The position numbers and the translations under genes are program-made. This document shows positions 5,866 to 43,602 of a stretch of DNA of 64,000 bases, in pieces. Numbering within the stretch: the stretch's first letter is position 1; every line of letters begins with the position of its first letter. The notes under the pieces are model-generated. The model was not told the origin of the DNA. It did not search any database and worked only from the letters and a program-made list of their open reading frames with translations. The DNA lies in assembly GCF_000763135.2 (NCBI RefSeq), contig NZ_JRPR02000001.1, forward strand, positions 310,001 through 374,000, read 5' to 3'. The DNA is from Helicobacter jaachi (lineage in GTDB: Bacteria; Campylobacterota; Campylobacteria; Campylobacterales; Helicobacteraceae).

Positions 5866-6009
5866 TATAGAATCTAACCTCTAAAACTAAGTTGATAGAT
5901 GCTTAAAGCAGCTATAATTTTATACTTTGAGGGCTCAAATGGGCTTTGCTCATTTGTGCAAGATGTGCGCGGCTTTTACAAAAGCAACAGCGCGGAAATT
6001 ATAGAATCT
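5866..6009 (+). repeat. ~145-bp dispersed intergenic element, copy A
   Basis: Bounded at both ends by TATAGAATCT in direct orientation (5866-5875 and 6000-6009). It contains TTGATA at 5892-5897 and TATAAT at 5913-5918 with 15 bases between, then an imperfect hairpin at 5936-5956 (arms CAAATGGGC / GCTCATTTG) and a perfect one at 5972-5985 (GCTTTT-AC-AAAAGC). It aligns over its whole length with the reverse complement of 14631-14778 and over its first half with 43423-43491. It sits between two convergent genes. Confidence 0.7.
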
Positions 6010-6025
6010 GGGGCTAGATTCTATA
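6000..6025. repeat. inverted pair of the AGAATCT word
   Basis: TATAGAATCT, six bases, AGATTCTATA: a perfect 10-bp inverted repeat in the convergent intergenic region between the dioxygenase and the chemoreceptor. No T-tract follows, so a role as terminator is only possible. Confidence 0.75.
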
Positions 6026-13889: not shown

Positions 13890-14582
13890 TTAAGCTTTGC
13901 ATATTTTTGCTAGCTCTTTGTAAAAATGCGAGTGGGCTATCATTTGATGAATGCTTGCATGGTGAAAAGGGCGTGAGAGGCTAGCATTATAATCACTCAC
14001 ATTTAGTTTATCCCACGCTCTACCAAGTAGGGCTATGAGATTTACGCGGCGCGGATTATTAAGCTTATCTTGAATATATACATTTTCCCATATTTGCACA
14101 TTTAAAAGTCGCGCTTTGGGCTTTATTAATCCCACGCCATCAAGGGTAAGTAAGTAGTGCAGGGTAGGAGCAAAAAGATTTTTCTGCAAGGCTTTATGCA
14201 CATTGCTAGCCCCCCAAGAATGCGCGATAATAAAAAGCGGCAACTGCGTTTGATTGAGCATAGAGAGCCACGAAGAAGTAAAGAGATGCGTGCATTTAAA
14301 GCTTACATAGATTTTTATCACATGTGCTTCATCAAAATGCGCAAACTCCCTATACACAGCCCTAATAATCGTATCACAAAATCCACCGACAAAAATCACA
14401 ATGGCTTTATAATTTTTTATAGAATCTAGGCTAGATTCTATATTTTTAGATTCTGTATTTTGTGCGGGGATATTAATCCCATAGGGTTTAAAAAGAGCGG
14501 GCGGCTTTGGCAAAAGTGCGCGCGGATAGATGAGAGTAGGGACAAAGGGAGAAAGCAGCCAATAGAATTTATAAGCGCGCAT
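13890..14582 (-). CDS. alpha/beta-hydrolase-fold protein
   Basis: About 230 residues. The pattern fits a small alpha/beta hydrolase: a strand then VIFVGGFCDT (oxyanion-type loop), nucleophile elbow IIAHSWGAS, a following LTLDGVG and a late histidine-rich tail (FHHASIHQMIAHSHF). It is perhaps an esterase or lipase-like enzyme; substrate unknown. The open frame runs further upstream but the ATG at 14582 with AAGGA six bases before is the convincing start. Codons around 14418-14442 are a palindrome of the AGAATCT word. The element copy at 14631-14778 lies just upstream and could carry its promoter. Confidence 0.7.
   Translation of the reverse strand: MRAYKFYWLLSPFVPTLIYPRALLPKPPALFKPYGINIPAQNTESKNIESSLDSIKNYKAIVIFVGGFCDTIIRAVYREFAHFDEAHVIKIYVSFKCTHLFTSSWLSMLNQTQLPLFIIAHSWGASNVHKALQKNLFAPTLHYLLTLDGVGLIKPKARLLNVQIWENVYIQDKLNNPRRVNLIALLGRAWDKLNVSDYNASLSRPFHHASIHQMIAHSHFYKELAKICKA
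14418..14442. repeat. 25-bp palindrome of the AGAATCT word inside a gene
   Basis: TATAGAATCTAG, one base, CTAGATTCTATA: perfect 12-bp arms, lying within the hydrolase coding region where it encodes IESSLDSI. A third copy follows at about 14447. Confidence 0.8.
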
Positions 14583-14630: not shown

Positions 14631-14778
14631 AGATTCTATAACGCCACGCTGCTGCTTTTTTATAAAAAGCCGCGTGGTCTTATCTCTGGGCAAGTGAATT
14701 GCCCTGCGCCGCCTAAAGTATAAAGTTATAATCTGCTTATGCAGCCTATCAACTTTTTTCTTAAGGCTAGATTCTATA
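14631..14778 (-). repeat. ~148-bp dispersed intergenic element, copy B
   Basis: Reverse-complement homologue of 5866-6009, again bounded by the same word at both ends (14631-14640 and 14769-14778). On the minus strand TTGATA (14747-14752) and TATAAC (14725-14730) are 16 bases apart. Hairpins sit where they do in copy A but with different bases: 14688-14704 (GGGCAA / TTGCCC) and 14654-14670 (GCTTTTT / AAAAAGC), the latter enclosed by CCACGC / GCGTGG. It lies between divergent genes. Confidence 0.7.
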
Positions 14779-43422: not shown

Positions 43423-43491
43423 TATAGAATCTAACTTTAAGAGATGAAGTTGATAGACTGTACAAGTGGATTATAACTTTATATTTTAGGC
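43423..43491 (+). repeat. dispersed intergenic element, partial copy C
   Basis: Starts with TATAGAATCT (43423-43432) and matches the first half of copies A and B: TTGATA at 43450-43455, 16 bases, TATAAC at 43472-43477, then CTTTATATTTTAGGC. After 43491 similarity fades and the distal word copy is absent. Lies between convergent ruvB and waaC. Confidence 0.6.
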
Positions 43492-43602
43492 ATAATTGTG
43501 CGGCTCCAGCTGAAGCTACAAAACAATGCTTTTTATAACCTTATGCAATGAAATAGGTAAATGGCTATTTGTGCGCTTTTAAATACATCTTTTAATTCCG
43601 CT

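Follow-up and report, generated by a model that had tools for sequence, protein, structure and literature searches.

The window (the whole 64,000-nucleotide stretch of DNA analysed here) contains three copies of a dispersed repeat. Copy A (5866-6009, forward strand) runs from decamer to decamer, aligns end to end with the rest of the family and scores 145.2 bits with the covariance model R2 described below. Copy B (14631-14778, reverse strand; model score 127 bits) lies in a divergent intergenic region, upstream of the ribulose-phosphate 3-epimerase gene, and copy C (43423-43541, forward strand; 50.5 bits with R2), which follows ruvB, is full-length but decayed. As originally predicted, copies A and B align end to end in opposite orientations with TATAGAATCT at either end of both (in copy A at 5866-5875, which is annotated as the target motif, and at 6000-6009, both on the forward strand), and positions 43423-43491 of copy C correspond to the first half of the element; a cross-species covariance model lengthens this copy to 43423-43541. 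Beyond these three, R2 has no match in the window.

The source genome (1.90 Mb in 35 contigs; G000) is that of a Helicobacter near H. hepaticus/H. japonicus, and the closest named match of its methionyl-tRNA synthetase is from H. japonicus (73% identity). Two relatives recur below: G009, which is identical to H. japonicus in the 150 bases that precede the epimerase gene, and G008, of the same genus, which is presumably H. hepaticus ATCC 51449. Genome-wide statements are based on searches together with individually retrieved stretches. The expectation of further copies in the genome was borne out, as BLAST with A and with B found ~70 places each in the source genome and a covariance model built on 52 copies (R1) raised this to 110 matches. 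R1 also matched 27 places in the relative G003 and 20 in G004, one to three in each of five further relatives and none in three others. With the model R2, which was built on copies from the source genome and G003, the family was found in 13 of 119 Helicobacteraceae genomes belonging to three genera, with many copies in G076 and G094 as well. This distribution is patchy, the family being abundant in a few species and missing from their sister species. Most copies in the source genome and G003 are scattered across the chromosome, and the positions of the model matches in G003 showed, by eye, no obvious replication-strand bias. In G004 we also observed (loci L199-L214) a second dispersed repeat made of GAGATTCT/CGAAGAAT words, as well as arrays of shorter CTTTAGGCG-hairpin-CAAGACATYAAATCAAT units that lack the third hairpin (H3) of the element.

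Fold and covariation of the unit

From 5' to 3', the unit consists of an outer stem (CCT..AGG) around a first hairpin (H1), the linker TTTAGGC, a second hairpin (H2), the pentamer AAGAY and H3. H1 is generally built from AAGTT, a bulged G, ATAG, an A.G mismatch, a short variable stem, CTAT and AACTT; in copy A it occupies 5889-5920 on the forward strand, with the bulged G at 5894, TGC/GCA as the short stem and AAYTT as the last arm. The folds, covariation in helices 3 and 4 and the spacing of the boxes place the supposed TTGATA/TATAAT promoter inside this hairpin, so that TTGATA...TATAAY, which the original prediction had set apart as a promoter feature, corresponds to the arms of AAGTT-G-ATAG-A...G-CTAT-AACTT. 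H2 of copy A (5933-5959, forward; fold and helix 5 covariation) has a stem whose sequence differs widely among copies, and it is joined to H3 by the conserved AAGAY linker (5960-5964, forward). H3 (5964-5995, forward; fold and helices 6 and 7) comprises a lower stem, a bulged G, a variable upper stem and an asymmetric AACA loop. Among copies the lower stem of H3 reads CCGCGC/GCGCGG, CCACGC/GCGTGG or CCGCAC/GTGCGG, and in G003 CCTTGC/GCAAGG, and the 3' side carries a loop that is either AACA or AATA. The corresponding folds of copy B, all on the reverse strand, are H1 at 14723-14755, the inner stem of H2 (GGGCAA/TTGCCC) at 14688-14704 and H3 (CCACGC ... GCGTGG) at 14644-14677.

The compensatory changes originally seen between copies A and B are real and extend to 85 distinct copies from two species, in which 93.8% of cells are paired and two-sided changes occur in 36 of 42 pairs. 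Double-change cells numbered 527, compared to 144 in shuffles and 41-80 in slid versions. The alignment was fitted to the model and is hence biased towards the structure; however, the slid controls collapse and the independent sequence families of G004 and of another genus (g2) show, by eye, the same hairpins, which argues that the covariation is not an artefact. The covariance model that the original prediction had called for revealed a structure conserved across species with strong covariation. Since G.T cells outnumber A.C cells (190 vs 56), the strand named here is the folding strand. Template-switch correction of quasi-palindromes can also give covariation in stems without selection; however, conservation between species extends to the bulged G, the A.G mismatch and the AAxA loop, and the retention of this bulge, mismatch and asymmetric loop in the aligned lineages favours selection for a specific shape.

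Insertion sites and the decamer

Near-identical copies (100%, 99.3%, 98.7% and others) occur at unrelated loci; the median pairwise identity of copies is 82%. The identity of such pairs (97-100%) stops within a few bases of the TATAGAATCT decamers, and the flanks of random pairs are ~30% identical, which is background. At the site of copy B the element is absent in relatives: H. japonicus reads TTTATAGAATCTTGATATCCCATTGTATCACA, retaining a single TTATAGAATCT, where the source genome has TTATAGAATCT-element-TTATAGAATCTAGCCGCCATTGTAACACA; G009 likewise has a single decamer, and G007 has the near-decamer GATAGAATCC. G003 carries a diverged element of its own farther out in this intergenic region, which starts at TATAGAATCT. 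At a further locus (L055) G007 and G008 read GGAGAATG-TATAGAATCT-GATTG, as opposed to decamer-element-decamer in the source genome. Both of the empty-site loci examined were compared with other species and not with strains of one species. A search for an empty site of copy A matched only a methyl-accepting chemotaxis gene with many paralogs and returned no usable ortholog. The single decamers at empty sites indicate that the target is a pre-existing decamer; one decamer before and two after insertion fit duplication of the target or a decamer carried by the element alike. On these sequence comparisons, the unit is mobile and targets TATAGAATCT.

Tandem copies share one decamer between neighbours, and some arrays are local tandem duplications. 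Copies in g2 and G004 are not bounded by TATAGAATCT, so targeting of the decamer is not family-wide, and in a small sample of g2 copies no flanking motif of the decamer kind, abundant genome-wide, was found. We note that partly conserved sequence, e.g. AAGACTACAGAAGTGCGAACC, lies upstream of g2 copies (L269-L275 in G094; L259-L268 in G076), which suggests that in this genus the unit is longer or prefers another target.

With respect to the surrounding genes, 27 of 51 copies (scored in the element orientation) lie between convergent genes, compared to 13 of 48 bare intergenic decamers (p=0.014), and only 2 of 51 lie between divergent genes, compared to 9 of 48 (p=0.025). This bias is as expected if copies insert and are then removed from promoters by purifying selection, and copies in the source genome avoid 5' regions.

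The decamer was originally noted to bound copies A and B, as indeed it does, but it is not specific to the element: the window has 66 occurrences, where 0.22 are expected, and the source genome has 1,700 (861 and 839 on the two strands, compared to 3 and 3 for a reversed control). Its extended form in the window, TTATAGAATCTA, lies mostly within genes and is enriched between them. Sister genomes of the genus contain ~180-450 decamers and genomes of genus g7 almost none. G059, which belongs to another genus, contains 5,185, yet no element match; the motif is thus independent of the element, and we rejected the idea that the decamer is a mere part of it. Examples in the window lie at 946, 991, 1024 and 14433; overall the decamer occurs roughly once per kb, balanced between strands, in several genera of the Helicobacter family. 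Inverted pairs of decamers (TATAGAATCTAGCCTAGATTCTATA and similar) form terminator-like hairpins at 14400-14442 and 6000-6025; uptake sequences in Neisseria and Haemophilus also form such terminator-like inverted pairs. DNA uptake sequences (DUS/USS) are strand-balanced motifs of ~10-12 bp that occur roughly once per kb, and the decamer resembles them in length, strand balance and density. It looks like a candidate DNA uptake sequence or another genome-wide signal. The literature searched contained no description of the decamer, or of an uptake sequence in Helicobacter.

Phage copies and the search for a mobilising enzyme

Diverged versions of the element occur in Mu-like and other Helicobacter prophages. 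In the Mu-like transposable prophages of G007, G008 and another Helicobacter (L279, L280 and L287, the last being BK070158.1), the MuA-like and MuB-like genes are separated by one or more copies (L280, 5628-9124; L287, 204-3599) and others precede further genes, mostly in the sense orientation and near the start codon. In g2 genomes several copies abut a ribosome-binding site and ATG, and some copies on one contig (G076:C13) are antisense. Viral contigs, plasmids and phage records contained no element of the source genome's own type, only diverged copies in phages, and two viral contigs hit by a pattern search (L309, L311) had no match to the model. A further viral contig (L310, IMGVR_UViG_2885586584_000001) agrees with G094:C18 both in length (7,761 bases) and in where its copies lie, so that the two are probably one contig. 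RCC1-repeat proteins are also encoded again and again by prophages that carry the element, in different species (L279, 9315-10826; L280, 12016-13512; L281, 3497-5077); the RCC1-repeat genes of L279 and L280 each have an element copy immediately upstream. Copies ahead of phage genes may be transcribed as leaders with a regulatory effect.

The Y1/REP transposase domain (PF01797) was found in 0 of 19 genomes by a search that was positive in five known control genomes. Reverse transcriptase (PF00078) was absent from G000, G003, G004, G076 and G094 and present only in G083. Both enzymes were rejected as mobilisers, being absent from the high-copy genomes. Reading frames in the gaps of five clusters of copies revealed no evident mobiliser gene. 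The AAGAY that precedes H3 can pair with ATCT, as would an IS605-like guide, a tetranucleotide at the 5' foot of the hairpin that matches the site of cleavage; this AAGAY/ATCT pairing is not carried over to other lineages, G004 having the linker without the decamer and g2 having GGTCTT.

Related systems and interpretation

The attC sites of integrons have variable stems, a conserved fold and extrahelical bases, and are recognised as folded single strands. The element resembles them in the first three respects, but has no recognisable core boxes and no cassette genes. Miniature inverted-repeat elements (MITEs), including the Correia elements of Neisseria, are likewise small, non-coding, dispersed and highly base-paired (PMC3049150). 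The original description of a structured, possibly MITE-like element stands as regards structure, high copy number and empty sites, but not as regards a classical MITE: an alignment of 55 copies showed no terminal inverted repeats, the ends being direct TATAGAATCT repeats, i.e. copies of the target decamer, and no matching transposase was found, nor, in the gaps of the five clusters inspected, a parent insertion sequence. BOX elements of Streptococcus pneumoniae are structured interspersed repeats whose mobiliser is unknown and which, like the element, are enriched between convergent genes; they consist of boxA-boxB-boxC modules with terminal inverted repeats and target-site duplications (PMC3049150), and the element is set apart from them by its lack of terminal inverted repeats.

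Also among the closest known systems are REP/BIME/REPIN-RAYT (TnpA-REP) and IS200/IS605-type elements (PMC6006769, PMC3116915, PMC8266576). Like these, the element is short, present in high copy number and intergenic, has imperfect hairpins with conserved bulges and mismatches on one structural strand, and is inserted beside a fixed short sequence rather than via terminal inverted repeats. It differs in its length of ~145 bp, in having three different hairpins and an enclosing stem, in showing no GTAG/GTGG foot, in the absence of PF01797 from the 19 genomes and in that its bounding 10-bp motif is itself abundant genome-wide. The trait that defines REP/IS200-IS605 elements is the transposase (PMC6006769); as the search for it was negative and a GTAG-type foot is likewise missing, we did not file the element under this group. 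A SINE-like or retroelement assignment presupposes an available reverse transcriptase, and the high-copy genomes contain no match to PF00078, although a reverse transcriptase too divergent for this profile may exist. Rfam searches with gathering and relaxed thresholds found no family in the window or in two phage records, apart from weak chance matches in single copies; that the element belongs to no named family, as originally judged, agrees with the lack of any match at the curated threshold. The literature searched contained no comparable Helicobacter repeat family. The best reading is a previously undescribed variety of short, non-autonomous, structure-dependent interspersed mobile repeats.

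Comparison of copies and sites establishes mobility, site preference, precise unit ends, a kept fold and the folding strand. We consider it probable that the element is a non-autonomous mobile repeat that is inserted at an existing TATAGAATCT by a trans-acting enzyme, which likely recognises the folded strand. The unit would consist of TATAGAATCT and ~135 bases with a fixed fold on one strand; the enzyme would most likely read the folded strand, as single-stranded DNA or RNA, via the hairpin with the bulged G and the H3 loop, and insert the unit at a TATAGAATCT that is already present, so that a decamer flanks it on either side. We infer that the mobilising enzyme uses the fold as its substrate. 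Chromosomal copies would be tolerated parasites that cluster at gene 3' ends and are seldom found in divergent promoter regions; copies in some phages, mostly sense and a short way ahead of start codons, would form transcribed leaders. It is a more doubtful proposition, offered tentatively, that the element represents a folded single strand (DNA or RNA) without terminal inverted repeats that is moved by an enzyme class not known for short repeats, lands on an uptake-type motif and shuttles between chromosome and phage.

Two other explanations assign the element a function in RNA. The main original reading, a family of small RNA genes with their own sigma-70 promoter, draws on the presence of TTGATA and TATAAC in nearly all copies of the source genome, but is barely credible. 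Both boxes are helix arms that pair with each other, which would place the hexamers within a conserved hairpin; their spacing is 14-19 in the source genome, 13-19 in G003, 17-20 in G004 and 15 upwards in g2; and they change together in relatives, where a -35 TTGATG accompanies a -10 CATAAC. Spacing from 13 to >20 and paired changes in the boxes are explained by constraint on the helix and not by constraint on a promoter, and no constrained -35/-10 spacing conserved independently of the structure, as in a sigma-70 promoter, was found. A structured RNA with its own promoter is therefore not supported. That the element is instead a native 5'-leader or processing RNA of Helicobacter phages, which controls the downstream gene and whose chromosomal copies are relics or secondary spread, seems to us unlikely, even though the placement of copies between MuA-like and MuB-like genes, mostly sense and close to the start codon, the g2 copies adjoining a ribosome-binding site and ATG, and the excess of G.T over A.C cells, which is compatible with RNA, are what such a leader would give. 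The gaps in these prophages separate co-directional genes, so that the placement may merely reflect where insertions survive; furthermore, some G076:C13 copies are antisense, and the copies of G000 and G003 are mostly chromosome-wide, with 5' regions avoided in G000.

Other explanations dispense with a mobilising enzyme. Natural transformation, combined with recombination at uptake-type decamers that serve as short homologies, would account for a decamer on both sides of the unit, and agrees with the uptake-like frequency and strand balance of the decamer and with the failure to find a PF01797 transposase. However, 10 bp is a very short homology, and neither the conserved fold nor the copies that lack flanking decamers in other genomes and in phages would be explained, and we regard this route as very unlikely. 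It is still harder to believe that the copies are ancient mosaic repeats, now inert, which multiplied only through local duplication or rearrangement. Some arrays are plainly local tandem duplications, and the median identity of 82% is in keeping with age; but the occurrence at unrelated sites of copies that are 100% and 99% identical contradicts inertness, unless such pairs are products of gene conversion, and decamer-bounded empty sites also speak against it.

Returning to the mobile, enzyme-driven repeat that we favour, its clear fold, precise ends, empty sites and recent identical copies make the chemistry of its transposition directly testable. Through the copies that precede phage genes, the family is connected with possible regulation of prophage genes, and the abundance of the decamer (up to ~5,000 per genome in the Helicobacteraceae) raises the question of whether Helicobacter species other than H. 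pylori use a DNA uptake sequence.
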